Both the position numbers and the translations under genes were made by a program. Of a stretch of 24,639 bases of DNA, positions 494 to 24,314 are shown one piece after another. The notes below the pieces were generated by a model, which made no database searches, had not been told where the DNA came from, and saw nothing but the letters and a program-made list of their open reading frames with translations. The DNA is from a virus, in the IMG/VR virus record IMGVR_UViG_3300021599_000028, positions 1-24,639 of that record; one strand, 5' to 3'. Within the stretch, counting starts at the first letter, position 1, and every line of letters begins with the position of its first letter.

Positions 494-501
494 TATTTAT
501 C
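494..501 (-). promoter_or_regulatory. T4-type late promoter motif GATAAATA
   Basis: The minus strand reads CGATAAATACAA. It resembles the T4 late -10 element TATAAATA and the looser NATAAATA of T4-like cyanophages. The last A is 24 bases upstream of the ATG at 470, leaving room for a short leader with GGAG. It overlaps the stop codon of the preceding 62-aa gene. The same ten bases (CGATAAATAC) recur upstream of the gene at 18735. Confidence 0.55.
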
Positions 502-685
502 GTTTTAAGCTGCCACCGGTGAGTAAATTAGCCCCCTTAATATCTAAGGCATTTTTTGCTGTACCGTCTTTATTCTTATAAGTCTTGCCCATTTTATTCT
601 TATAAACAGCACCAACACTTACATTTCCTGCACTAGTTGCGCCAGCAGTAGCGTCTTCTTTAACTAATATTTCTTTTATTCGCAT
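497..685 (-). CDS. Small conserved phage protein with capsid-targeting-like N-terminus
   Basis: This 62-aa protein starts MRIKEILVKEDATAGATSAG and continues with a Gly/Lys-rich part. It begins three bases after the stop of the gene at 689-2143. The ATAGATSAGN segment is one I associate with small virion-associated proteins of aquatic T4-like phages; no function is known. Its first six residues fit the pattern M-x-(L/I)-(R/K)-(E/Q)-(L/I) shared with the two large neighbours. T4 internal head proteins carry a comparable N-terminal peptide that is cut after Glu by prohead protease gp21. By analogy, cleavage after Glu10 would release a 52-residue basic peptide inside the head (inference). Confidence 0.6.
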   Translation of the reverse strand: MRIKEILVKEDATAGATSAGNVSVGAVYKNKMGKTYKNKDGTAKNALDIKGANLLTGGSLKR

Positions 686-688
686 AAG

Positions 689-2143
689 TTATTCCAAATA
701 TTGCGGGAATCTTTTGTTAAAATGACGCATGATAATACCTGCTTTAGTATTTGCTTCATTTTCTTCATTGCTACCAGTAGCGCCACTTTGTTCATCAAGC
801 TCGCCCTGTTGATCTTGTTTAAAGTGTACTAGTTCGTGTGCCAGTGTTCTAAGTACATCTGCAGGATGACGATCTTTAAGCGCCAACTGTATAGTGCCGT
901 CAGCTGGATTATACCCACCAAAGCTAGGTTGATCACCAGTTTCGATAGTTTTATGTACACTAATTCTAGGCAGCTTATCTAGCTTTAGCAACTTCATTAC
1001 AAATGGTAAGAAGTCTTCTAGTGCATCCATAGTACTAGGATGAATAACAGCTTCTGTTAATGTTTCATTCTTTTTAGCCTTACCAGCTTTCATATTAGCA
1101 AGCCAATGTGCTAACTGGCCCTTACGTCCACCTTGTTTAGCAGTCTTACGTAAACTACTTACTGATGCTTTAGTATTGATACCGTGACGCTTGCTGTCAC
1201 CTTTGTCTTGTGGATTCTTTCCATCAGCAAAGTTTTCCGCCACACCTTGCTTAACAAACTGAACATTTAATTTAGCATTTTTCCACAAGGGATTTTTAGG
1301 ATCCATTCTTTGTTGTAACAACCATATGGCAGATACTCTATGGGCGCCATCTTCAAACTTACCGTTTAATACTATTGCTGGTGGCAACTTTGCTAAACTT
1401 TCTGGATGATCCTTCAAGTAAGTAGCATACTCTATAACTTTTTTAGTGACACCCCAACTATAATCTTTGGCGTCCCAATCATCAACTACATTATTATAAT
1501 AAGGCACCCCTGGCACAGATGATATAATATCTTTTACAGTCATTTGTCGAGTTTGTATTTTAGCATCGGGTCCAAACTGTTTTGGAGCACCTGAACTTGG
1601 CCCCGGTTGAGGGACGCCTTCCGCCACACCACGATTAACACTTTCGCCACCTCCGCCGTCACCACCGCCGGAGCTATCTCCGCTGTAGCCAGCATAGTAT
1701 CCATAGCCACCATAAGGTCCAGGACCGTATGCTGCAGAAGTACCTGCAGTACGACGAGCTTTGCGCTTACGTTTCTTAGCCTCGCCTACATTGTAAGTAG
1801 GATCGGTCTTCTGACGAGGCATACCTTTGGGTTGATTAGGATCCAATGGATCGATATCAGTAGTAGTGAGACCTGTCTTTTTTAATGCGTTAATATATTT
1901 GTGTTCTTCTTCTTCGCTGCCAAAGGAAAATATAGTGCTAGGAGGTCCCTTGCCAAAGTCGTGTTTGCCTAAACCTTTCATATTACTAATATGCTGACCT
2001 AACTTGTACCAATCGTAGACATCATCAACATCTACCTTAACAGTACCTGCGGGCATAGTAGGTTTAGTTTCCGGACCAGGCGGCAGATCATTAGGATGGA
2101 AATCCTCTTGATCGATCCTTTGCATCAATTCTCTTAAAAACAT
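689..2143 (-). CDS. Modular head-associated protein: ParB/Srx-like domain plus HExxH metalloprotease
   Basis: Start chosen at the ATG at 2143 (MFLRELMQRI), one base after the stop of the endolysin gene; a TTG twelve bases earlier is less likely. Modules of the 484-aa product: residues 1-118 a conserved phage block; about 119-170 a Lys/Arg-rich then Gly/Tyr/Ser-rich stretch; 200-298 a ParB/sulfiredoxin-like fold suggested by FEDGAHRVSAI; 300-360 a basic module (SKRHGINTKASVSSLRK, QLAHWLANMKAGKAKK); 365-484 a zinc-metalloprotease-like domain with HELVH at 436-440 and a downstream EENEA that can supply a third ligand. The modules are separated by VGE (119-121), VAE (173-175 and 302-304) and LTE (362-364). 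These resemble T4 prohead-protease sites, so the protein may be cut into separate units in the head (inference). Domain names come from motifs only. Confidence 0.65.
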   Translation of the reverse strand: MFLRELMQRIDQEDFHPNDLPPGPETKPTMPAGTVKVDVDDVYDWYKLGQHISNMKGLGKHDFGKGPPSTIFSFGSEEEEHKYINALKKTGLTTTDIDPLDPNQPKGMPRQKTDPTYNVGEAKKRKRKARRTAGTSAAYGPGPYGGYGYYAGYSGDSSGGGDGGGGESVNRGVAEGVPQPGPSSGAPKQFGPDAKIQTRQMTVKDIISSVPGVPYYNNVVDDWDAKDYSWGVTKKVIEYATYLKDHPESLAKLPPAIVLNGKFEDGAHRVSAIWLLQQRMDPKNPLWKNAKLNVQFVKQGVAENFADGKNPQDKGDSKRHGINTKASVSSLRKTAKQGGRKGQLAHWLANMKAGKAKKNETLTEAVIHPSTMDALEDFLPFVMKLLKLDKLPRISVHKTIETGDQPSFGGYNPADGTIQLALKDRHPADVLRTLAHELVHFKQDQQGELDEQSGATGSNEENEANTKAGIIMRHFNKRFPQYLE

Positions 2144-2144
2144 A

Positions 2145-2777
2145 TTAGCCTTCAAACACGTCTAGTGCATCGTTCCAGTGTTTGATACGATCTTCTAAAC
2201 CAATAGTTCCACCATTGATGCGTTTACTTAGCAATACAATATCGCCTTTGTCGCAGATTTCGTTTAGCTTGTTCTTGTACCAGAACCAGCAGGCTGTAAT
2301 AATAGCGTACTCTGGTGTACGCACTAGATCAGGATCGTTAGCGAGTGTGTCGTCACCAAACAAATCACGTGAGCATTGTGTATAGTTTGCACGACCTGTT
2401 AACTGTAATATACCACGACCACGGAACTTGTATCCATCACCTGACGCTTCTGGACCATTACCCATACGTCCACCGTAGACACGGTTAGCAATCATTTCTG
2501 GCTTTTTAGCATACTGATTTGCAATGGTATCGTCTGGAAAATATTTTCCAAATATACCACGTAGACCTTTTGCACTATAGTTTAGATTTTCTTGTAAAAT
2601 AGTAAAGTCTGCACTTTCGTGCTGTCCTTGTGCTACAAATCCTGCAACACGAGCCGCAGTAGTAATGCCAAATTTTGGCAAATACTCATTCATAGCATTG
2701 TACCAAAATTCTGGCTCTCGATTTTTGTGTAGTAAATGTGTTACCTTATCTAGTGTAAAATCAAATTCAAAACTCAT
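2145..2777 (-). CDS. Endolysin, GH19 (chitinase-like) muramidase family
   Basis: This 210-aa protein fits phage GH19-type endolysins, which cleave the glycan of peptidoglycan at the end of infection. The catalytic-site block is VAGFVAQGQHESADF with Glu54, followed by EN-LNYSAKGL. The second conserved block is GDGYKFRGRGILQLTGRANY (residues 113-132). There is no signal peptide, so release to the periplasm would depend on a holin; a candidate lies at 8443-9024. The ATG overlaps the stop of the preceding 73-aa gene (ATGA) and GGAG lies upstream. Its position among modular head-associated genes, away from holin and spanins, is unusual. An alternative role as a virion-associated lysin cannot be excluded. 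Confidence 0.85.
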   Translation of the reverse strand: MSFEFDFTLDKVTHLLHKNREPEFWYNAMNEYLPKFGITTAARVAGFVAQGQHESADFTILQENLNYSAKGLRGIFGKYFPDDTIANQYAKKPEMIANRVYGGRMGNGPEASGDGYKFRGRGILQLTGRANYTQCSRDLFGDDTLANDPDLVRTPEYAIITACWFWYKNKLNEICDKGDIVLLSKRINGGTIGLEDRIKHWNDALDVFEG

Positions 2778-2995
2778 CTGTTGTCTCCTATTGGTTTTTC
2801 ACCTGTCATATACGGCAAGCTAAACCATAACTTAAACCAATCTGGGGTACCTGGTTTAATATTGTGCGTCTTCATCAACTGCCCTTTTTCGTTGCCCGTA
2901 ATACTAATATTACTGCCTTCGTTAATGTCATATGGTGTTAGACCTTTGTAACTATTAACACCGGCTAGGCGTTTTAATTGTGCCAGTTCATCCAT
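2774..2995 (-). CDS. Small conserved phage protein (73 aa), unknown function
   Basis: The product starts MDELAQLKRLAGVNSYKG and ends PDWFKLWFSLPYMTGEKPIG. I recognise both the DELAQLKRLAG opening and the HNIKPGTPDWFKLWFS block from small proteins of uncultured aquatic phages; no function is known. It is translationally coupled on both sides: its ATG shares bases with the preceding stop (TAATG) and its stop overlaps the endolysin start (ATGA). No membrane segment or metal-binding motif is visible. Its location between a nucleotidyltransferase and the endolysin, inside a group of probable head-associated genes, is the only hint to its role. Confidence 0.65.
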   Translation of the reverse strand: MDELAQLKRLAGVNSYKGLTPYDINEGSNISITGNEKGQLMKTHNIKPGTPDWFKLWFSLPYMTGEKPIGDNR

Positions 2996-4251
2996 TATAT
3001 TAACCTAAATGCCTTTAGATTCTTCTTTGGTGTATTCTTATTTACATCGACAGTTGTATTCTGTTTTGTTATAATACCAACACCTGCTGACTCTAAAGCC
3101 TTTTCACGCTGTAATCTATCCCAAGCATTTTCAGCTACTATCTCATTTAATCCATACCCGTCACGGATAGCCATCAAAACTTCACTTACGCTGGCTTCGG
3201 TTGTTGGTAGTTTACCGTGTTCGCCAATGTCAGGACGTCCGCCTTCAAATGTTCCTAGTGCATAGGAGAACATGCCGTCACCTTCGTTGTCAATCATAAC
3301 CATGTAGTATTGACTTTCATCTTCTGCACCTTTAGTGCTAAACATAAATGCATCGTCACCTTTACGCTGTGCTTTCCAGCCCATTGCTTTCATAGCACTA
3401 CCGATCTTATTAGCAACAACTGGCCAAGGAATCATTTCACCTAATTTGTTTTCCGCTACACTTTTCTCATCGTTGGCAAACTGTTTCTTAGTTGCTTTGA
3501 CAATGCCCGAAAAACGTTTGTTGCCGCGATCGTAGTCACCTTCTGCATCTGCTTTTTTAGCATCAGCAGCAGCAGCTTTTTTATAACGACCTAGAAATTC
3601 ATTTGATAACTCATAGAGTGTATCTTTGAAATCATTCTCTGCTACATCTTGCTCTGGTTGTTTAACTTTTTTCTTAGCAGCCTTAACTTTTTCTTTTTCT
3701 GCATGAGGTGCTAGATAGTGTGCTACTACATCAAAGAATGGATGTCCTGCTACAGGAGTATCAGAAGGAACACCTGCTGCCTGAGCAAACGCTTCTCTAT
3801 CTCCCGCTTGTACTGCTGCTCTAAGAGCTGTTGCAGAACTTAATCTAGGAGTAGGTTGTTGTTCTATATTTGAAAAATTGTAATAGCCATGAGCACCGTC
3901 TTTGCCGTTATACTGAACTAGAGCTTTAGTAACCCAGTCTTCATCTGTATACACGTTAAGAACTGTGTCGCCATATTTTTTGTAAACTTTACTGGCCAGT
4001 GTTAACCAACTAGTCTCAGCGACAATGTGTCCTTTAACTTCAGGCATAACTGCTAGCATGGCTTTAACTTTAATATCGTAAGGTAATGGATCCTTGGGTC
4101 CTTGTGTACTTTGATTAGTACCTACAAACCACGCTGGATTTTCACTAGCCATTTCCCATGCCTTAACGTGCCCTTGATGCGGAGGATTAAATCTTCCGAA
4201 TATAATTCCTACACTCGGCGCCTTAGATTCAAAAAGTTGTCTTAATTTCAT
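2995..4251 (-). CDS. Nucleotidyltransferase fused to head-type modules separated by VAE sites
   Basis: Residues 11-185 form a cytidylyltransferase-like (HIGH superfamily) nucleotidyltransferase with GRFNPPHQGH at 19-28 and SSATALR at 138-144. The family transfers AMP or CMP to small phosphates (for example NMN or pantetheine phosphate); the substrate here cannot be read from sequence. The rest of the 418-aa protein is a chain of modules: 206-264 (GRYKKAAAADAKKADAEGDY, then RGNKRFSGIVKATKKQF), 268-371 an alpha/beta block of unknown function, and a short tail from 375. VAE precedes Asn at 203-205, 265-267 and 372-374. The N-terminus MKLRQLFES matches its neighbours. I infer an enzyme packaged in the capsid and trimmed by a gp21-type protease. 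The start overlaps the preceding gene by 23 bases. Confidence 0.75.
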   Translation of the reverse strand: MKLRQLFESKAPSVGIIFGRFNPPHQGHVKAWEMASENPAWFVGTNQSTQGPKDPLPYDIKVKAMLAVMPEVKGHIVAETSWLTLASKVYKKYGDTVLNVYTDEDWVTKALVQYNGKDGAHGYYNFSNIEQQPTPRLSSATALRAAVQAGDREAFAQAAGVPSDTPVAGHPFFDVVAHYLAPHAEKEKVKAAKKKVKQPEQDVAENDFKDTLYELSNEFLGRYKKAAAADAKKADAEGDYDRGNKRFSGIVKATKKQFANDEKSVAENKLGEMIPWPVVANKIGSAMKAMGWKAQRKGDDAFMFSTKGAEDESQYYMVMIDNEGDGMFSYALGTFEGGRPDIGEHGKLPTTEASVSEVLMAIRDGYGLNEIVAENAWDRLQREKALESAGVGIITKQNTTVDVNKNTPKKNLKAFRLI

Positions 4252-4594
4252 CTTTTTTCTCTGTGTTCTTTTTCTTTTCGTCGTGATAGAAATTATGTTC
4301 TTCAGATTGTAGTTTGTCGCATACCTCTTCTAAATCTTGACTTGATAAAGTATCTTCCATTCCTTCAACTGGGAAACTATTTTTATAGCACTCAAATGCA
4401 TGTTTTACAATGGGTACAAATGCTTTAGCACTTACTTGTCTACCAGCATCGCAGTGACGATTAAATTTCTGTATAAATGGATGATAATCCTGGCGATAAA
4501 ATTGCGGATCGTTTCTCATGAAAAAGATAAGATCATCTGTTAGATCAAATTCTTCTCGTTTTATATTAGGATTGTACAGTTCAAAAATTTTCAT
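4229..4594 (-). CDS. Conserved phage protein (121 aa), unknown function
   Basis: The product starts MKIFELYNPNIKREEFDL, is acidic and alpha-helical, and ends in a charged KKKNTEKKDEIK tail. I recognise the combination of an MKIFEL opening, a FFMRNDPQFYRQDYHPFI-type block and a final EEHNFYHDE helix from uncultured aquatic T4-like phages; its role is unknown. The N-terminal M-K-I-F-E-L is a shortened form of the peptide shared by neighbours at 497-4251. It is the first gene after a terminator at 4619-4656 whose loop holds a GATAAATA late-promoter motif, 44 bases before the ATG. Late expression and a head-associated role are inferred. The Shine-Dalgarno sequence is weak. Confidence 0.65.
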   Translation of the reverse strand: MKIFELYNPNIKREEFDLTDDLIFFMRNDPQFYRQDYHPFIQKFNRHCDAGRQVSAKAFVPIVKHAFECYKNSFPVEGMEDTLSSQDLEEVCDKLQSEEHNFYHDEKKKNTEKKDEIKTTF

Positions 4595-4673: not shown

Positions 4674-5321
4674 TTACTGCTTTACACACTGCTCTACGTT
4701 CTGTATATTGCTGCTTAAGAACATTTTAACCATGGTTAATGACTTTTCATCCTTAACATAAAAGTAATACCCGCCCCAACTATGCTCTTTAGACAACTGT
4801 GACGATGCACGTTTAGTTAACTTAACTTTATCCTTTCCACTACACCATTGTAAGAAGTTATTGTAGTTTTGTCTAGTTCTTCCCATAGTTACGCGATAAT
4901 CGTAATCTAAATTCTTTACAATAATCTTTTTATCTTCTAAGTTTGCTTCTGATCCGGGCGTTGGAACACTTACGTATTTTACACTGTCTACATTTACTTT
5001 GGCTAATTTTTCAATATCTGCTTTGTTATTTGTATAAAAGTTTATATAAGGACTTTCAATTCTAATAATAAAATCAGTCATCTTTTGCATAGCTGAAGTT
5101 AACTTAACAGCATATTCTATTTCCGTAGTAGTAATAGTCCTTGCCCAATGTGCATGAGTAGACATATCTTGTACTGCTGTCATTGTTTTAACGTGCTCTA
5201 AATCTGCGCCTCTAAACCAGCTGGCCGTTTTAGTGACAAGTACAATTTTGTATTTGTACTTGCCATTAAACAACTTAGTTGTTTGTTTGGTCTGTATTGA
5301 CAGTGCTAATTTCATTAACAA
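4674..5321 (-). CDS. Conserved phage protein (215 aa), unknown function, overlaps clpA-like gene
   Basis: The protein opens MLMKLALSIQTKQTTKLFNG and contains the blocks TASWFRGADLEHVKTM, ESPYINFYTNNKADIEKLAK, TMGRTRQNYNNFLQWC and SWGGYYFYVKDEKSLTMVKM. I recognise this block pattern as a conserved but uncharacterised protein of T4-like aquatic phages; there is no catalytic motif I can name. It is mixed alpha/beta, without signal peptide or membrane segment. Its start lies inside the 3' end of the clpA-like gene (47-base overlap, other frame), so translation of the two is probably coupled. It is the last gene before the terminator at 4619-4656. Co-expression with DnaJ- and ClpA-like proteins makes a partner or adaptor role possible, but this is only context. 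Confidence 0.75.
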   Translation of the reverse strand: MLMKLALSIQTKQTTKLFNGKYKYKIVLVTKTASWFRGADLEHVKTMTAVQDMSTHAHWARTITTTEIEYAVKLTSAMQKMTDFIIRIESPYINFYTNNKADIEKLAKVNVDSVKYVSVPTPGSEANLEDKKIIVKNLDYDYRVTMGRTRQNYNNFLQWCSGKDKVKLTKRASSQLSKEHSWGGYYFYVKDEKSLTMVKMFLSSNIQNVEQCVKQ

Positions 5322-7551
5322 TTACCTTTGGAGTTTTTGGCTTTGCAGTTAACGTTAGAGCGCCATCTGTAACTCCAATGCTCAACATTCCTCCACCTTT
5401 TAAGTCACCAAACAACATTAGTTTAGCCAGCGGACGTTTAATGTCCTTGTCAATGACACGCTGTAACGGTCGAGCACCCATCTTAGCATCAAAGCCTTTT
5501 TCGATTAACCAATCAATTGCTTCATCAGCAATTTTAATCTTGATGCCTTTTTCTTTAACTTGCTCACGCACTTCGACCATAAACTTACCAACAATTTTGA
5601 TCATAGTTTCTTTAGTTAACTTACCAAAGGTTACAACACCATCTAGACGATTTCGGAACTCAGGAGCAAAGAACTTTTTAAGTGCTTCGTCACTATACTG
5701 CTTTTCCTGTTGACCAAATCCAATCTGATTCTTTTCAGAGTCACTAGCGCCAGCATTAGTAGTAATGATTAGAATCAAATTACGGCAATCTGCTTTCTTA
5801 CCATTAGATCCTGTGACAAATCCATTGTCCATCATCTGCAACAGAATAGTAGAAACATCAGGATGTGACTTTTCGATCTCGTCTAACAATAATACACAGT
5901 TAGGATTTTCTTGTACTTGTGTAATTAACAAGCCAGCATTTTCTTCAAAGCCTACATATCCCGGAGGGGATCCAATCAGCTTACTAACTGAATGCTTTTC
6001 TTGATACTCACTCATATCAAAACGCACAAGTTTAACACCTAGATTCTTAGCAAGTGATTTAGCAGTTTCTGTTTTACCAGTACCTGTTGGACCCATAAAC
6101 ACAAACGCACCTACTGGACGATTCTCTGCTTTCAACCCAGCTTGGCTAACAAGAATCTTGTCAACAATTTCTGTAATAGCAGTTTCTTGTCCGTAAACTT
6201 CTTGTTGTAAGTTAGCTTCAAGATTTGCAAGATTTGTAGATTCTTGTTCTGCAATCTTCTCAGTAGGCATATTAACTACCTTAGCAAGCTCATATTGAAT
6301 AGCTGCCTCGTCGACTACTTTATCTTCGGCAATTTTTAAATTAAAACGTGAACATGCAAGATCAATTAAATCAATTGCTTTATCAGGCAACTTTTTATCT
6401 GTTTGATATTTAATGCTAAGTTTTACGGCTGCTTGAATAGCATCATCTTTAATTTTAACATTGTGATGTTGTTCGTAATACTTCTTAATGCCTTTAAGAA
6501 TCTGTACTGCCATTTCTGGAGTAGGTTCATCAACAGTAATACGAGCAAATCGGCGCATCAATGCACGATCCTTTTCGAAGTACTTGCGATATTCTTCCCA
6601 TGTAGTTGAGGCAATAACTTTAATGTTACCTTTACTTAATGCTGGTTTCATCATATTAGCAAGATCATTACTACTTTGTTGTCCGCCTGCACCTGCACCG
6701 CTAATCATGTGTGCTTCATCGATGAACAATACAGTCTTACCTTTCTTGTCAAGGCCTTTAAGAACTAACTTAAAGCGTTCTTCAAAGTCTCCACGATACT
6801 TACTACCAGCAAGCATAGCACTAATGTCTAAGTTGTAAACAGTGTATTCTTTTAAGAAGTCAGGAACAGCACCTTTGACAATGTTGTAGGCAAGTCCTTC
6901 TGCAATAGCAGTCTTACCAACACCTGGATCACCAACTAGAATCACATTGCTTTTACTACGACGACCTAACGACAAGGCAATATTTTCTAATTCGTCAACA
7001 CGCCCGATAACTGGATCAACTTTATTCTTTTTAACTGAATCATTAAGATTAGTTGTAAAGGCTTTTAGGGCTCTTTCACTTTGTCCATCACGTGGATCAT
7101 CTTCTGCTTCTGTTTCTTGAATATCGCTATTCAAATAATCGGCAAATTTATCTTTATCAATTTCTGCTTGAGCAATATAATAGTGAGCATAGCTACGCTT
7201 TTCGCTCATGATAGCAAGAAAAACATCAGTAGGTTCGATCTTCTGACGTCCGTTAAACAGAACTTGTGTAAACGCACGATTTAATACACGTTCAACAGCT
7301 TGTGTCTTACGTGGCTTAGTATCAACTTCTTCAGTAATAATTTCGTCACATTTATTTTTAAGGTACAGCTCTAGATTCTTTTTAAGAAAATCAGCATCGG
7401 CACCATATCCAGTAACGCACTTGTTAAATGATTCCTCACATAGCATTGCAAAAAGCAAATGTTCTATAGTTAAGTATTCATGTTTAAGTTTTTTAGCTAC
7501 ATCAATAGCTTTTTCGAATACCTGTTGCAATTCGCCACTCGGTTCTACCAT
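5275..7551 (-). CDS. clpA: ClpA-like AAA+ unfoldase with ClpP-docking loop
   Basis: The 758-aa protein has the ClpA layout: an N-terminal Clp repeat domain (about 1-145), a first AAA+ module with Walker A GDPGVGKT (207-214), Walker B VLFIDEAH (274-281) and arginine finger region RALMRRFARI (329-338), and a second module with GPTGTGKT (487-494), VLLLDEIE (553-560) and sensor-2 GARPLQR (692-698). There is no ClpB-type middle coiled coil, so it is an unfoldase rather than a disaggregase. At 610-612 it has IGF, at the place where ClpA has IGL and ClpX has IGF, the tripeptide that docks on ClpP. No clpP is in the window, so it may drive the host ClpP (inference). A Shine-Dalgarno AGAGGAAA supports the ATG. 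It is 17 bases downstream of the dnaJ-like gene. Confidence 0.95.
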   Translation of the reverse strand: MVEPSGELQQVFEKAIDVAKKLKHEYLTIEHLLFAMLCEESFNKCVTGYGADADFLKKNLELYLKNKCDEIITEEVDTKPRKTQAVERVLNRAFTQVLFNGRQKIEPTDVFLAIMSEKRSYAHYYIAQAEIDKDKFADYLNSDIQETEAEDDPRDGQSERALKAFTTNLNDSVKKNKVDPVIGRVDELENIALSLGRRSKSNVILVGDPGVGKTAIAEGLAYNIVKGAVPDFLKEYTVYNLDISAMLAGSKYRGDFEERFKLVLKGLDKKGKTVLFIDEAHMISGAGAGGQQSSNDLANMMKPALSKGNIKVIASTTWEEYRKYFEKDRALMRRFARITVDEPTPEMAVQILKGIKKYYEQHHNVKIKDDAIQAAVKLSIKYQTDKKLPDKAIDLIDLACSRFNLKIAEDKVVDEAAIQYELAKVVNMPTEKIAEQESTNLANLEANLQQEVYGQETAITEIVDKILVSQAGLKAENRPVGAFVFMGPTGTGKTETAKSLAKNLGVKLVRFDMSEYQEKHSVSKLIGSPPGYVGFEENAGLLITQVQENPNCVLLLDEIEKSHPDVSTILLQMMDNGFVTGSNGKKADCRNLILIITTNAGASDSEKNQIGFGQQEKQYSDEALKKFFAPEFRNRLDGVVTFGKLTKETMIKIVGKFMVEVREQVKEKGIKIKIADEAIDWLIEKGFDAKMGARPLQRVIDKDIKRPLAKLMLFGDLKGGGMLSIGVTDGALTLTAKPKTPKVIVNEISTVNTDQTNN

Positions 7552-7568
7552 TTAATTTCCTCTTACGG

Positions 7569-8411
7569 TTAAGTTGTTTTTATAATTTTAGCATAGAGTG
7601 TTTCGAACTCTTGCCTTAATTGGCTATCTGTAATAGCAGGGATTTCTACGTGGAGGATTACGACAAGTTTGCCTTGCATGTGTGAGTTAAGATCTCTGAA
7701 CCCTTTCCCTCCTACAGCAAACTCTGCTCCAGAATGAATACCTGCTCTAATCTTAAGAGGAATTAATGATCCGTCTAAGGAAGTAACTTCTTTAATACAG
7801 CCTGTCATAGCCTCGAGAATAGAGATATTGAATATTGTTACAAGATCATTTCCTCTTCTTTCCCATACAGGGTCGGGCTCAACTATAACAGTAACATTTA
7901 AATTTCCTCTAGGCAAATTAGGAATAGAATCATCTCCAAGATCGGCATATCGAATAGTCTGTCCTGTTTGTACCCCTTGAGGAACATCAACCACTACTGT
8001 TTGTGCTCTTCCAGTTGGTGTGTTAAATCTTGCTTCAATTTGAGTTCCTGTATAACTTTGTTTAAGTGTTATACTAACTCTGATTGAAAGATCTCTATTT
8101 CGGCGTTGTTGTCGAAACCCACCAAACGGATTCCCACCACCGAACCCAAATGCTGTTCCAAATATATCATTGATATCTTGGAATCCATGGGTGCCACTAC
8201 GTGCTTGAGCAAACGGGTTATTTTTTTGAGCATCATATTGTTGACGCTTCTGATCATCGCCTAATGTGTCGTAGGCTTGTGAGATTTCTTGAAATTTCTG
8301 TGTATCGCCGCCACGATCAGGATGATTCTTCATGGCCAACTTTTTGTAGGCCTTTTTGATATCATCCTGACTTGCGTTTTCAGCTACACCTAGTATTTTA
8401 TAATAGTCCAT
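7569..8411 (-). CDS. dnaJ: DnaJ-like co-chaperone (class B, CbpA type)
   Basis: The 280-aa protein has a complete J domain (1-64) with HPD at 30-32, a Gly/Phe-rich linker (about 70-105, FGTAFGFGGGNPFGGF) and two C-terminal beta-domains (about 110-275). The Cys-rich zinc repeats of class A DnaJ are absent. J proteins stimulate Hsp70 (DnaK) ATPase and deliver clients; no dnaK is in the window, so host DnaK is the likely partner. I chose the ATG at 8411 (MDYYKILGV). A GTG 18 bases upstream overlaps the -10 box and would add six unusual residues. The ATG lies six bases after a perfect TATAAT and has no Shine-Dalgarno sequence. It heads the dnaJ-clpA-215aa unit. Confidence 0.9.
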   Translation of the reverse strand: MDYYKILGVAENASQDDIKKAYKKLAMKNHPDRGGDTQKFQEISQAYDTLGDDQKRQQYDAQKNNPFAQARSGTHGFQDINDIFGTAFGFGGGNPFGGFRQQRRNRDLSIRVSITLKQSYTGTQIEARFNTPTGRAQTVVVDVPQGVQTGQTIRYADLGDDSIPNLPRGNLNVTVIVEPDPVWERRGNDLVTIFNISILEAMTGCIKEVTSLDGSLIPLKIRAGIHSGAEFAVGGKGFRDLNSHMQGKLVVILHVEIPAITDSQLRQEFETLYAKIIKTT

Positions 8412-8446
8412 AGTACTATTATATAGCACTATAAACTAAATGTCAA
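8412..8446 (-). promoter_or_regulatory. Consensus sigma-70 promoter of the dnaJ-clpA unit (leaderless)
   Basis: The minus strand has TTGACA (8446-8441), a 17-base spacer and TATAAT (8423-8418), followed by AGTACT and then ATG. All twelve consensus bases match. With usual spacing the first transcribed base would be at or next to the A of the ATG at 8411, giving a leaderless mRNA. The -35 box overlaps the end of the holin-candidate gene. Confidence 0.85.
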
Positions 8447-12832: not shown

Positions 12833-13034
12833 AATTTCTTCCCCAATGTATTTTATTCCATATTCTTTCATGTATGTAATATAATATAGTATTAGCTGTC
12901 ACTTGTACTATTGCTATTGATCCGGCAATTAAAAAACTGCCTAAAATTAAATAGGATATCACAAATGTACTAAAACTACCAGTTAGCCTCCAACTGATAG
13001 TCTTAGCAATACTACGGGATGTAGTTTCAATCAC
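12831..13034 (-). CDS. DUF2061 membrane protein
   Basis: The 67-aa protein matches DUF2061: an N-terminal SIAKTISWRLTGSFSTFVIS, a two-TM hairpin (about 19-35 and 38-54) and the closing YYIHERIWNKIHWGR. Function is unknown, but DUF2061 is sometimes joined to adenylylsulfate kinase in bacteria. Here it directly follows an APS-kinase-like gene, with GTG start overlapping the preceding stop (GTGA), so the association is kept in this phage. That makes a shared job in sulfate or nucleotide-derivative metabolism at the membrane plausible (inference). It is the last gene of the leftward unit and ends at the terminator. Confidence 0.85.
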   Translation of the reverse strand: MIETTSRSIAKTISWRLTGSFSTFVISYLILGSFLIAGSIAIVQVTANTILYYIHERIWNKIHWGRN

Positions 13035-13834
13035 TTATCTAAGCCTAACTCTTTACGAATTTTTGTAGCTGAAATGTCGGTTACAGATTCATCAAATGAC
13101 TCTTCACCACTAGTATAGCCTACGCCACGCCCCCATCCAATATGTACAATGTTAGGTACTACTTGGATTTCATATTGCCCTTGATATAAAGGGTCTAGAT
13201 CACGTTTGATAAATCCCTTAACCTTAGCAACTTCAAAAGGATTACTACCTTGCCACCCTTGCACATCACGTACCTGAATAATAACTTGTCCAGTTTTTGC
13301 CAGCAGCCTTTCAAACAATGCACGATGACCATCATGCCATGGTTGCCAACGACCTAACATTTGTACAGTAGGTTTCTTCCAATCAAATATTGGACGACGT
13401 CTGTTATCTATAATATGTGCGGCGATAAATTCGCCCCATTTTTCGCTGTTCTGTTCTGTAATACGGAAGTCGTAAACTTCAGGCTCTATGAACATGGCAT
13501 TAGTATCTGCATACCTCCCCTCACGGATAGTATCAACCCAGATAGTCCAGTCTGCTTTAAAGTTATTACGCATTTCGACTAATGGTGCAACAAAGTCACA
13601 AATAACATAATCATATTCTATCATACTATCTGCTAGTTCACGCATACGCAAACTTTGACGGATACGCCCTTCGTGACTAAAATCCCAGTCATTATACTTC
13701 TTACGCACATCATCTGCATTGAGCCAACCTACTTTTTTCTTTTCATTTTGTAAATGCTCTAGTACATGTTGTGCTAGATAAGTTTTGCCCGCACCTGGCA
13801 GACCCATAATTAAGATTCTAAGTTTTGCCCGCAC
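13031..13834 (-). CDS. APS-kinase-like P-loop kinase fused to nucleotidyltransferase, 5' end disrupted by duplication
   Basis: The N-terminal half is an adenylylsulfate-kinase-like P-loop kinase (GLPGAGKT, then WLNADDVRKKYNDWDFS as in CysC). The C-terminal half is a HIGH-type nucleotidyltransferase (LGRWQPWHDGH, C-terminal ISATKIRKEL). The substrate cannot be told. The natural start is almost certainly the ATG at 13868, one base after the dCMP deaminase stop and behind AGGAGA. From there, however, the frame runs MPKRILIMGLPGAGKT and then hits TAG at 13820, because a 40-bp tandem duplication shifts the frame. The given coordinates use the open frame from a GTG at 13834; an ATG at 13807 is also possible. 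Removing one repeat copy restores a continuous kinase. Confidence 0.8.
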   Translation of the reverse strand: MRAKLRILIMGLPGAGKTYLAQHVLEHLQNEKKKVGWLNADDVRKKYNDWDFSHEGRIRQSLRMRELADSMIEYDYVICDFVAPLVEMRNNFKADWTIWVDTIREGRYADTNAMFIEPEVYDFRITEQNSEKWGEFIAAHIIDNRRRPIFDWKKPTVQMLGRWQPWHDGHRALFERLLAKTGQVIIQVRDVQGWQGSNPFEVAKVKGFIKRDLDPLYQGQYEIQVVPNIVHIGWGRGVGYTSGEESFDESVTDISATKIRKELGLDK

Positions 13835-15744: not shown

Positions 15745-15911
15745 TATACTAACTCCTCAACAATGCCTAATACTTCTGCTATAATAATCAATGCACCGCA
15801 CACAACGAATGAGCCCATAATAAGAGAGGCACCTGCGGCAATGCGTACAGCACTTTTTACAATGCTGACATAAAAATGACCTTTGCTTGTATCTTTAGGT
15901 TGTATTTCCAT
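15744..15911 (-). CDS. 55-aa single-pass membrane protein
   Basis: A short frame with ATG at 15911 behind AAAGGA encodes MEIQPKDTSKGHFYVSIVKS, then one long hydrophobic helix (about 23-48) and an acidic end (EVLGIVEELV). It overlaps the TagD-like gene by 17 bases in another frame and ends TAATG on the start of the 72-aa gene. That tight packing and the clean membrane topology support a real gene. I recall similar KPKDTSKGHFYVS-type peptides in aquatic phages. Without it, 15745-15894 would be an unexplained gap in an otherwise gapless unit. Function unknown; location in the inner membrane is expected. Confidence 0.75.
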   Translation of the reverse strand: MEIQPKDTSKGHFYVSIVKSAVRIAAGASLIMGSFVVCGALIIIAEVLGIVEELV

Positions 15912-16317
15912 TTTTAATCCTTTCTGCGTCGACTACACGTTGACGTAATTCTGTTGTTGAAAAGCCGTGTTTCCTATGATTGTAATACACTTGCATATCT
16001 AAGTGCTCACCTGTAAATGACTTAGTCATATACTCTTGTCCTAGTATTCTAACATTAATAGGATAAGAAAGCAAGATGTTTAGTAAATCTTCTTCAGTGG
16101 CATACACTAGTATTTCATCAATGTATTTGCAGGCTTTGAGCTGTTCGTATCTTTCAAATACACCTTGAACTGGCTTGTTTTTTTCAGGACGATCTATAGT
16201 TGGATCTGTTTGTAGGCCGACTATCAAATGGTCGCATTGTGTTCGTGCTTCTTTGAGCATCATAATATGACCTGCGTGGAACAAGTCAAAAGTTGAGCAA
16301 GTAAATCCTATTTTCAT
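15895..16317 (-). CDS. TagD-like cytidylyltransferase-family nucleotidyltransferase
   Basis: The 140-aa single-domain protein is of the length of glycerol-3-phosphate cytidylyltransferase (TagD) and has the family motifs GFTCSTFDLFHAGH (HAGH at 14-17), a central RYEQLKACKYIDEIL block and a C-terminal HGFSTTELRQRV. TagD makes CDP-glycerol; related enzymes activate other sugar or alcohol phosphates, so the substrate is uncertain. It is the third HIGH-type nucleotidyltransferase in the window. The ATG follows a consensus TATAAT by six bases and lacks a Shine-Dalgarno sequence, so it probably leads a leaderless transcript that continues through gp44 to DUF2061. Confidence 0.85.
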   Translation of the reverse strand: MKIGFTCSTFDLFHAGHIMMLKEARTQCDHLIVGLQTDPTIDRPEKNKPVQGVFERYEQLKACKYIDEILVYATEEDLLNILLSYPINVRILGQEYMTKSFTGEHLDMQVYYNHRKHGFSTTELRQRVVDAERIKNGNTT

Positions 16318-21683: not shown

Positions 21684-21856
21684 TACAGAGTCCTTCTAAT
21701 TCTTCTTCTAGGATAAACTGCTCCGCTAGTAGGCCTAGGTTGGTAGTTAAGTTTTGGAAATGTATTTCCTGACGTTGGACGTTCTTTATAATAATATAAA
21801 AATAAATTAGCTGAACCTTGTAGATCTTGTCCGTCTGCAGGACCATTCGAGTTAGT
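21683..21856 (-). other. Out-of-frame C-terminal extension of the S8 protease gene
   Basis: The S8 frame stops at 21852-21854, but the +1 frame from 21856 codes for 57 residues without start codon: TNSNGPADGQDLQGSANLFL, then YYYKERPTSGNTFPKLNYQP and RPTSGAVYPRRRIRRTL. Its composition is protein-like. I recall comparable LQGS…YYKERPxSGxxFPKxNYxxRP endings in phage virion proteins. It ends TAATG exactly on the start of the 983-aa gene, as other gene pairs here do. It is therefore probably the true C-terminus, joined by a +1 shift somewhere between about 21887 and 21856, or separated by a mutation or a sequencing error. Confidence 0.7.
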
Positions 21857-24314
21857 AGTTATTTGCCGCCTTGGCTTGTGCCTGATTCATATTAGGATAT
21901 ATTTCCAACGCACATGCTAGAACTCCGCACACCTGCGGGCTTGCCATACTGGTTCCGCTATACTTTCCTAAATAATATCCTGACTCTCTAGGATCGCTAA
22001 CTCCACTGGGTAATGCACTGATAATATGCGTACCGGGAGCATATAAATCTACTCCTGGACCACAGTCACTATACTGTACCTTTTGATCTGTGGATATAGA
22101 GTCAATTGATCCCACACATATTGCCGGCATTTCAAAACCGCCACCGGCAGCAGTATCGTTAGCAGTAGGACTAGTTCCTCTCATATAGTAATAAGGATTA
22201 GCTACACTATCGGGATATCTAGTAGCCATCTCAAATCTGTTGTTCCAGTCCAGCCCACCCGGCACATCATGTTTCCACCGACCGTTACCAGCAGCACCTA
22301 CCATGATAATACCTTCTGAGTATAATTCTTCAATGTCTGCATCAGCGGCTGAAACTCTAGCAGGAATACGCTGACCACTGATGAATCCCCACGCATTTAA
22401 TTGTTCAGTAGTAAATGCGCCAGTTGTTTTTCTAGAATTTACACCTACTTGTAAATCAATCTGGTCTGGAGTAGCTTCGTAGAATACATACTCGCAAACC
22501 ATAGTTGGAGATCCTAATACTCCAGACGTACTTGCAGCCCCTTCCATTCTTATATTAAATGTTCTGCTTCCTGCAGTGCCTTGTGTAGTGTAATAAATTC
22601 TCTGCACACTGTTATCAGCAGCACTCCACATGATTTTAGGAAGATTAGGAGAACTTTGATTAACTGTTGACCATACTGTAGAACCTGCTCCGAATGTTAG
22701 ATAGAAGTTTGTGCTAGGATATATTTCATTATAAGTAGTTCCAAGATAAGTTATAGGAAACGGTAAAGCTAAATTCCAGTAGCCGTCATCATTGTTACCT
22801 ACAGTTGGAGTAGTTGAAGACGTCCATCCGCCAGTACTAGATAAGGTATTAGTTATACTGCTAACAGATGCTGCTGCTGGTGTACTTTCTGTTACTACGA
22901 TCAAACTCAATGCCGAAGCAAACAATACTGAACCAGCGCCGCTAATATCGATAGTATTATTAAATGTGATAGTATACACTGCTGTATCAGGTAAGTTAAT
23001 AGTTTCTCGAATGTCAGTTTCTAATGTACCACCATTACTTGTTGATCCTGCATCTTGTGTGTAAGTCTGCACGGGAGTCGCACCTTGAGTGATAACAATA
23101 GAACTGCTTAGTGACATTGTACCTGAAACAGCATCCATTGCAACATTATTAATCAACTCTAAATCAGCTGGACCTTGTACTGTAATGGTATAACTTGCAT
23201 TAGGTTGTGACAGTTCAGTAAAATATGCCTGCTCTCCAGTTTGCGTCCATGAGGCCGGTTTAGTTAAGATGATGCCGCCTGGTGGCGTATAAGGCCCGGT
23301 AGTTGTTATTCTGTTTCCGGCATTTTCAAATCCAACTAGGGTTGCTAATCTTGCATTAGAAGTACACACACCGCTGAAACCTGTGTAAACTGTTGAACCT
23401 GCAGGAGTGTATCTAGTCCCTCTATAGGTTACAGCAGTAATATCAGTTAATGACCATTCGCTTGGAAAAATACTTTGTCCCCAACTGTTGTTAACAATAG
23501 TAGGATTTTTTCTACCTGTAGCATTATTAATTGTTTTATTTCGATGGAATGCTCTTATGTAATCAAAAACATAACTAAAGTTGCCAGGATTTCCAGTATC
23601 ATAATATAGATTATAAATGTTAGCACTACGAGCCCAGCCTTGTGTATTGCCAGCAACTGTTCCTGCTACGTGCGTTGAGTGATCCCCAACTCCATACGTA
23701 TAAGTACTATTCACACCATTGCCTATTTCGGCACTATGTTGATACCAATTGTATTGAATGGCCCTAGTACCACCAGTGCCGTCATCATTGACTTCAAAAT
23801 CTGGATGATTCCATACAAGGCCATTAAGGTCACAGATTACTACATCAACATTACGACCAGTTTGAGTTAGAGTAATAGTTCCAGTTTGTGCAGGAGTACC
23901 TGTTCCGCCACCTTGATATCCGGTACCACCCCATCCTGAACGTTGCACTCCTTCGGTACACCTTAGCAATCCCCAGTTCTTCATAGCTGAGCCAGTGCTA
24001 GTTGACTTATCCCATGCTGTACTAGTTTGCTCAAATGCCGTTGTGCCTGCTTTAATACCTAAATATTGAGGAGCAATTGAAATTGTTTTAATTCTCGGAT
24101 CGTTTCGTAATTCTTCTACTTCTAAATCCGTTAACAAGTAATGAGTATTTCTACTGGTAGTTCTACGATGTAAGCAGTCTACACTTCTTAATAGATTAAT
24201 ACCTGCAGGACTCTTACCTTCAGTTTCTAAATCAGCATAAATGCTATCTAAATCTTCGAAGTTATTAACAGTTACAATATATTCTTTTCTTTTAATGTAA
24301 TCTGATATAGACAT
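21852..24314 (-). CDS. Virion-type subtilisin-like serine protease (S8) with large insertion
   Basis: The 820-aa frame has a complete subtilase triad: Asp162 (DVVICDLNGLVW), His212 (GDHSTHVAGTVAG), oxyanion Asn677 (GAAGNGRWK) and Ser789 (SGTSMASPQVCG). Residues 1-85 resemble a propeptide. Between the His and the Asn blocks about 350 extra residues are inserted. They include a beta-rich region (TYTQDAGSTSNGGTLETDI) and a module WNLALPFPITYLGTTYNEIY to QIDLQVGVNS, a type I associate with phage structural proteins. It lies among virion genes and has no signal peptide, so it is probably part of the particle, perhaps maturing tail proteins or digesting host surface protein. The frame ends early at NNY; a continuation lies in another frame. 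Confidence 0.9.
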   Translation of the reverse strand: MSISDYIKRKEYIVTVNNFEDLDSIYADLETEGKSPAGINLLRSVDCLHRRTTSRNTHYLLTDLEVEELRNDPRIKTISIAPQYLGIKAGTTAFEQTSTAWDKSTSTGSAMKNWGLLRCTEGVQRSGWGGTGYQGGGTGTPAQTGTITLTQTGRNVDVVICDLNGLVWNHPDFEVNDDGTGGTRAIQYNWYQHSAEIGNGVNSTYTYGVGDHSTHVAGTVAGNTQGWARSANIYNLYYDTGNPGNFSYVFDYIRAFHRNKTINNATGRKNPTIVNNSWGQSIFPSEWSLTDITAVTYRGTRYTPAGSTVYTGFSGVCTSNARLATLVGFENAGNRITTTGPYTPPGGIILTKPASWTQTGEQAYFTELSQPNASYTITVQGPADLELINNVAMDAVSGTMSLSSSIVITQGATPVQTYTQDAGSTSNGGTLETDIRETINLPDTAVYTITFNNTIDISGAGSVLFASALSLIVVTESTPAAASVSSITNTLSSTGGWTSSTTPTVGNNDDGYWNLALPFPITYLGTTYNEIYPSTNFYLTFGAGSTVWSTVNQSSPNLPKIMWSAADNSVQRIYYTTQGTAGSRTFNIRMEGAASTSGVLGSPTMVCEYVFYEATPDQIDLQVGVNSRKTTGAFTTEQLNAWGFISGQRIPARVSAADADIEELYSEGIIMVGAAGNGRWKHDVPGGLDWNNRFEMATRYPDSVANPYYYMRGTSPTANDTAAGGGFEMPAICVGSIDSISTDQKVQYSDCGPGVDLYAPGTHIISALPSGVSDPRESGYYLGKYSGTSMASPQVCGVLACALEIYPNMNQAQAKAANNY

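Follow-up and report, generated by a model that had tools for sequence, protein, structure and literature searches.

The window analysed here is IMG/VR virus record IMGVR_UViG_3300021599_000028, a 24.6-kb (24,639 nucleotides) record of a T4-like phage, in which ClpA-, DnaJ-, PhoH- and clamp-loader-like genes were recognised from their translations. Within it, four minus-strand genes encode proteins of 121, 418, 484 (counted from its ATG) and 62 amino acids (aa). An initial annotation had regarded the openings of these proteins as capsid-targeting-like, and the VAE tripeptides of the two large ones as sites at which a prohead protease would separate packaged enzymes. All four openings (MKIFEL, MKLRQL, MFLREL and MRIKEI) were present as described.

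Modular architecture of the two large proteins

The 418-aa protein starts with the leader MKLRQLFE, which is followed by an NMNAT-like nucleotidyltransferase (residues ~10-186), a basic helical module (~208-265), an alpha/beta module (~270-370) and a short C-terminal module. The nucleotidyltransferase had been named in the initial annotation, and its identity was confirmed by a PHROG cytidyltransferase match (4.5e-15) and by the NMNAT-like fold, for which NadM NMN adenylyltransferase was the best Foldseek match (E-value 4.9e-5). VAE occurs four times in this protein (residues 77, 203, 265, and 372) and not three times as first counted. The last three lie between unrelated modules, as had been claimed, while the VAE at residue 77 lies inside the nucleotidyltransferase fold and was ruled out as a junction.

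Among close homologues of the 418-aa protein, the two outer parts, namely the nucleotidyltransferase and the NAWDRLQ module at the C-terminus, are retained and the stretch between them is swapped, each of the swapped middles being preceded by VAE or a V/I/L-x-E variant. VAE265 is the border of a match covering residues 212-267 that is seen in many phages, and these residues also occur alone in other virus contigs. In homologues of the C-terminal border, the NAWDRLQREKALESAGVG module stands behind VAE (loci L004, L008, and L009). The sole match of the basic helical module in the cultured-phage search was Synechococcus phage BUCT-ZZ01.

The 484-aa protein is composed of the leader MFLREL, an N-terminal module, a strongly shuffled module (residues 173-301), a basic FADGKNP module and, at the C-terminus, a HELVH metallopeptidase-like module. 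VAE was found twice (residues 173 and 301), and VGE (residue 119) and LTE (residue 362) were both present, in line with the initial annotation. In the match coordinates, which use a 488-aa numbering, many unrelated contigs contain residues 177-307 with an identity of 95-98%, and residues 307-488 were found alone in other contigs. VAE173 is the left edge of the first match, and VAE301 is both its right edge and the left edge of the second. Among 17 occurrences of the 177-307 module, the neighbour was of 13 kinds on the left side and of 12 kinds on the right. The structure model of this protein was poor (mean predicted local distance difference test score, pLDDT, of 50) and usable only around residues 301 and 362, where VAE301 and LTE362 appear as short low-confidence breaks flanked by better-defined parts.

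The HELVH domain gave weak family matches only, with no significant fold match, and the FADGKNP module had no match in 50,697 cultured-phage records. The label 'ParB-like', also given in the initial annotation, was not confirmed by Pfam or PHROGs. In Flavobacterium phage immuto (L356, 7285-10008), a 907-aa protein joins an NMNAT domain to the same type of metallopeptidase without VAE linkers.

Table 1. Genes, leader and candidate cleavage sites in the window, with other features of interest. Residue numbers refer to the respective protein.
Feature	Position	Strand	Remarks
121-aa protein, start MKIFEL	4229-4594	-	leader-like start; no VAE, no family
418-aa polyprotein, start MKLRQL	2995-4251	-	
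Leader MKLRQLFE of the 418-aa gene	4228-4251	-	capsid-targeting-like, ending L-F-E
VAE, residues 77-79	4015-4023	-	non-junction; strand 75-78, pLDDT ~82
VAE junction, residues 203-205	3637-3645	-	GTA GCA GAG; homologue module border; linker 187-220 pLDDT <50
VAE junction, residues 265-267	3451-3459	-	GTA GCG GAA; segment 247-271 pLDDT <50
VAE junction, residues 372-374	3130-3138	-	GTA GCT GAA; segment 367-378 pLDDT <50
484-aa polyprotein, start MFLREL	689-2143	-	
VGE, residues 119-121	1781-1789	-	model too poor there to judge
VAE junction, residues 173-175	1619-1627	-	canonical linker core GGT GTG GCG GAA GGC
VAE junction, residues 301-303	1235-1243	-	AAG CAA GGT GTG GCG GAA AAC
LTE, residues 362-364	1052-1060	-	between FADGKNP and metallopeptidase-like modules; segment 356-369 pLDDT <50
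62-aa protein, start MRIKEI	497-685	-	
GH19-type endolysin	2145-2777	-	
ClpA-like unfoldase and DnaJ genes	5275-8429	-	
Kinase fused to NMNAT-like domain	13031-13834	-	
RfaE-like cytidylyltransferase	15895-16317	-	
820-aa protein	21852-24314	-	

Module borders, leaders and virion location of homologues

Loci for comparison were collected through the window's own proteins or through the DNA linker described below, and genes in them were called by a simple rule of the longest open reading frame (ORF). The sequences are mutually related, so that p-values overstate their independence. In a set of 145 loci, most of them relatives retrieved by similarity, VAE was counted 402 times against 139 expected, which was the top z-score among tripeptides. 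The highest numbers in relatives were eight in a 706-aa protein (L030) and seven in a 1470-aa protein (L111).

To run a check suggested in the initial annotation, whether VAE lies at module borders in homologues, we took the points at which local protein homology stops inside both partners and compared them with positions drawn at random from these proteins. VAE was indeed found at the borders, ranking first of all tripeptides in the loci fetched only by similarity (231 against 61 expected), and the matches of the 418-aa and 484-aa queries in virus contigs begin and end at VAE. Splitting the boundaries by protein class gave no clean negative control, because proteins missed by the leader or linker pattern show the same enrichment. 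The inner modules had a median size of 94 aa, and single-linkage clustering, the counts of which are rough, divided the modules of the sampled linker proteins into 405 families, 293 of them seen once.

When all borders with VAE within 14 residues were removed, X-x-E was enriched over the composition expectation for Leu (1.97), Ile (2.05), Val (2.31), and Met (1.87), while Ser reached 1.2 and values close to 1 or lower were obtained for Phe, Ala, Tyr, Gly, Thr, Asn, Lys, and Gln. At the same borders, patterns with D, Q, K, or S in place of E behind L/I/V/M-x showed no enrichment. Among homologous junctions, the P1 Glu was kept in 74% of the aligned sequences and L/I/V/M at P3 in 77%, with Ala at P2 in 48% only and a flanking identity of ~38%. 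Gp21 of T4 cuts after L/I-X-E (PMC9026906), and the [LIVM]-x-E signature derived from the borders agrees with a gp21-type specificity.

The gp21-type protease invoked in the initial annotation gains support from these borders, from the head genes of relatives and from a cleavage-site context that the 62-aa protein has in common with the capsid protein. By Pfam, the S77 prohead protease (gp21) and gp23 were both present in 13 IMG/VR relatives as well as in Melnitz, and gp23 of the relatives has, at a conserved position before the gp23 core, x-L-x-E with S/N/P/A as the next residue. The 62-aa protein consists of MRIKEILVKE followed by DATAGATSAGNV and has ATAGATSAGNV in common with gp23 of relatives; this sequence follows VKE in the 62-aa protein and stands directly behind an L-x-E (LAE) site in gp23. 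Comparison with gp23 of L287 and L289 gave 11 identical consecutive residues, whereas no run longer than 6 arose in 2000 shuffles. Roughly ten small leader proteins of relatives (e.g. in L089, L218, and L135) carry the post-cleavage gp23 sequence after the leader.

Prohead targeting, the other part of that proposal, is supported by T4-like leaders and by published virion mass spectrometry of NMNAT-like homologues. The pattern M-x(4-6)-[LIV]-x-E opens 47% of the linker genes; the figure is 13% for the remaining genes and 6.7% for N-termini that had been shuffled (p = 1e-19, without correction for relatedness). M-R-A-x-[ED]-F starts were found in 136 distinct proteins, with mostly I/L/V at residue 7 and with Glu at the free residue 9 in 114 of them (84%). 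These MRAxEF(I/V/L)xE leaders have E-F-I-x-E in common with the T4 leader, MKTYQEFIAE. In the T4 leader, residues 4 and 7 matter for targeting and residues 8 and 10 for processing (PMC9026906).

The nucleotidyltransferase module of the 418-aa protein matches the cyanophage T4-GC190 family. T4-GC190 was detected in purified S-SM1 virions by mass spectrometry (PMC3037559). In S-SCSM1, the virions likewise contained the homologue, ORF91, together with the products of neighbouring genes (PMC9602691); the authors of that study point out that NMNAT-like proteins are found repeatedly in virions of cyanophages and suggest that they may enter the host. When translated, the cyanophage NMNAT genes start with MKSFLQFLKE (S-SCSM1), MKKFSAFLNE (S-SM1), MKSFSQFLTE (P-SSM2), MKNFHQFITE (S-SRM01), and MKSFFQFLSE (S-SM2); the excerpts of both papers contain no mention of these leaders. 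A literature search joining 'capsid targeting sequence' and 'cyanophage' returned a T4 review alone. From the sequences we infer that MKLRQLFE aligns with MKSFLQFLKE, MKKFSAFLNE and the T4 leader.

A coding DNA linker at module junctions

The most unusual part of the system is the linker at the DNA level and the shuffling of cassettes. Many junctions are encoded by RAG CAA GGT GTG GCG GAA GGC, a stretch of ~20 nucleotides (nt) that translates into [K/E]QGVAEG. At QGVAEG sites with unrelated flanks that had not been fetched by the motif (n = 32), CAA was used in 100%, GGT in 94% and GAA in 91%. Against the background the codon choice was striking for GTG (94% vs 19%), GCG (94% vs 7%), and GGC (75% vs 27%), while VAE without a preceding Gly had no codon bias. 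Between divergent modules (25-50% identity), codons were shared at 50% of the identical residues, compared with 78% in the linker.

A frame-blind scan of virus contigs revealed at least 120 stretches of the linker, whereas the 20-nt sequence occurred only twice in 257 Gb of bacterial and archaeal genomes. One of these occurrences, in a Rhizobiales deaminase-like gene, was discarded as a chance match. The other (L265) is on a short 5-kb contig of a Bacteroidetes metagenome-assembled genome and is possibly phage DNA binned with it. With 49 distinct contexts, the linker was the most promiscuous 14-mer of all. No other dispersed linker was found among the next promiscuous 14-mers, which were the leader start ATGAGAGCAAAAGA (8 contexts, the most after the linker), repeats and a terminator-like palindrome. 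In the literature, QGVAEG returned no phage paper among the matches listed, and the KQGVAE matches were to alpha-synuclein.

The ends of DNA alignments between phages amounted to 27 per nt at the first base of the linker and 35 at the last, compared with ~0.5 nearby. Alignments that extend through a shared linker make this peak sharper, but they are not its origin, since fewer ends than expected were found at a distance of 20-100 nt. The breakpoints at the linker edges and the in-frame conservation of the linker look like in-frame cassettes, the joint of which is also a protease site. This could represent a new in-ORF gene-cassette system, with an open pool of 50-150-aa modules and one coding DNA word acting as both recombination joint and prohead-protease site, a tentative proposal to which we give somewhat less than even odds.

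Proposed packaging and cleavage, and alternative explanations

With a probability of roughly 80%, we consider these genes to encode T4-like internal head proteins that are targeted by a leader, cut by gp21 and built from in-frame cassettes joined at the linker. The short N-terminal leader (MKLRQLFE and MFLREL here, MRAxEFIxE in many relatives) would target the protein to the prohead core, where a gp21-type protease would cut after [L/I/V/M]-x-E. These cuts would take off the leader and divide the chain into its modules at linkers of the VAE/LTE type. The mature head would then carry a separate NMNAT-like enzyme, a metallopeptidase-like domain and basic modules, all of which would enter the host with the DNA. 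The ~20-nt coding linker would encode the cut site and also serve as the joint at which modules recombine between phages, presumably by general (homologous) recombination between linkers in mixed infections. If the proposal of an in-ORF gene-cassette system is true, any exchanged module would automatically enter the head and be set free there as a protein of its own.

Several observations weigh against this reading. About half of the linker genes fall outside the leader pattern M-x(4-6)-[LIV]-x-E, and the leaders of the window are shorter than that of T4. The late-promoter motif TATAAATA, located upstream of 2.4% of the linker genes and 2.1% of the other genes, showed no difference and speaks neither for nor against late expression. 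At P3 the residues documented for T4 are L and I, with V not among them, and a cleaved peptide has been observed for no VAE. The window, being a fragment, contains neither gp21 nor gp23, and Pfam gave no match to either in five large records of 167-343 kb (G004, G018, G021, G022, and G026), which may be incomplete, divergent or devoid of these genes (non-T4 head). The same five records carry linkers or modules (L033, L127, L184, L185, and L221, respectively).

Alternatively, the linker could be first of all a DNA site, recognised by a site-specific recombinase or a homing endonuclease that moves the cassettes, and the VAE peptide a by-product. Its conserved length of ~20 nt, the wobble conservation, the sharp breakpoints and the high promiscuity would all suit such a site, although by eye the linker is not obviously palindromic, as the attachment site of an integron-like cassette may be. 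However, 156 of the 158 distinct copies among the matches listed are in the same sense VAE frame while all six frames are open, copies between genes were not seen, and many working junctions use other codons. In addition, no linked recombinase was identified, although no systematic search was made. We regard this explanation as unlikely.

It is also quite unlikely that the proteins are packaged but stay uncut as polyvalent proteins, with VAE as part of a flexible linker that is conserved by travelling with the recombination joint. Phages are known to have injected 'polyvalent' proteins with several domains (PMC5512222), some packaged proteins such as the N4 virion RNA polymerase remain unprocessed, and homogenisation of the linker DNA alone would preserve VAE. 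On the other hand, borders that have neither VAE nor the DNA linker still show L/I/V/M-x-E and no other pattern, and the P1 Glu is the most conserved residue of the junctions while P2 is variable. Moreover, all three junctions of the 418-aa gene keep VAE without the canonical linker codons. Taken with the codon conservation of the linker, such junctions indicate that the peptide persists where the DNA word is missing, and that the DNA word is conserved further than the peptide alone would require. Action in the cytoplasm of infected cells, with a coincidental likeness of leader and VAE, is strongly disfavoured and very improbable: an NMNAT and a metallopeptidase could act late in the cell, and proteomics does not exist for this phage, but leader-bearing NMNAT-like homologues were found in purified virions, the leader is common to 136 unrelated proteins, and the borders show the same specificity as the prohead protease.

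Regarded as internal head proteins, the products of these genes resemble IPI, IPII, IPIII, and Alt of T4, which have a short leader ending in hydrophobic-x-E and unrelated bodies; gp21 and gp23 are present in relatives and a homologous module has been located in virions. The T4 proteins, however, are single units cut mainly at their ends, whereas here 2-9 modules are chained, with internal sites that are often V-A-E and with a conserved DNA linker. In the PeSL cassettes of T4-type phages, short repeated DNA has been proposed to allow modular exchange, but this DNA is intergenic and non-coding (promoter/terminator), unlike the linker, which is coding and in frame.

The 418-aa and 484-aa proteins have a multi-domain architecture, as do the polyvalent proteins (Iyer et al. 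2017, PMC5512222), which are packaged or injected and mix metallopeptidase-like with other domains. Of the domains characteristic of that class (MPTase, DdrB-type ParB, ART, and others), the candidates here are the weakly matching HELVH domain and the unconfirmed 'ParB-like' part. The release of polyvalent proteins was proposed to occur via embedded peptidase domains and no shared linker was described, while the sites found here are compatible with a prohead protease and the modules are joined by one fixed stretch of coding DNA. The ejection proteins of phiKZ and SPN3US, which are cut by gp175 and gp245, respectively, are packaged in the head and processed after x-x-E at several sites per protein. 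The respective proteases prefer S/A-x-E and A-x-E, and the cleavages concern N-terminal propeptides, in contrast to the module-separating linkers here. Recent shuffling of protein fragments between phages, as seen here, has been described as domain mosaicism (Smug et al. 2023, PMC10684548) with no mention of a linker or of a class of internal head proteins, whereas here one DNA word marks the points of exchange.

As the leader and the cut site are readable from sequence, many anonymous phage proteins would become predicted injected proteins. Proteins packaged in the head act before any phage gene is expressed and are thus well placed for counter-defence; to our knowledge, they are little known outside T4 and the giant phages. 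A packaged NMNAT-like enzyme might replenish NAD+ at an early stage of infection, against NAD-depleting defences, and reconstitution of NAD+ by phages against such a defence is known (PMC12774641). If the linker works as proposed, this lineage of T4-like freshwater phages would have a built-in format for modular exchange, and the linker makes it testable whether DNA words are selected or maintained as in-frame recombination joints.

The ClpA-like unfoldase and DnaJ genes of the window adjoin the leader-gene cluster. Both are also located beside leader genes in L111 and, with DnaK in addition, in record G014 (~102-113 kb), and these genes may be connected with the way in which head proteins are loaded or unfolded. 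The endolysin gene, which has no leader, lies between the two polyprotein genes. Two further nucleotidyltransferase genes of the window, the kinase fusion and the RfaE-like gene, have neither a leader nor VAE junctions. The 820-aa protein contains the subtilisin-like motifs GDHSTHVAGTVAG and SGTSMASPQVCG.

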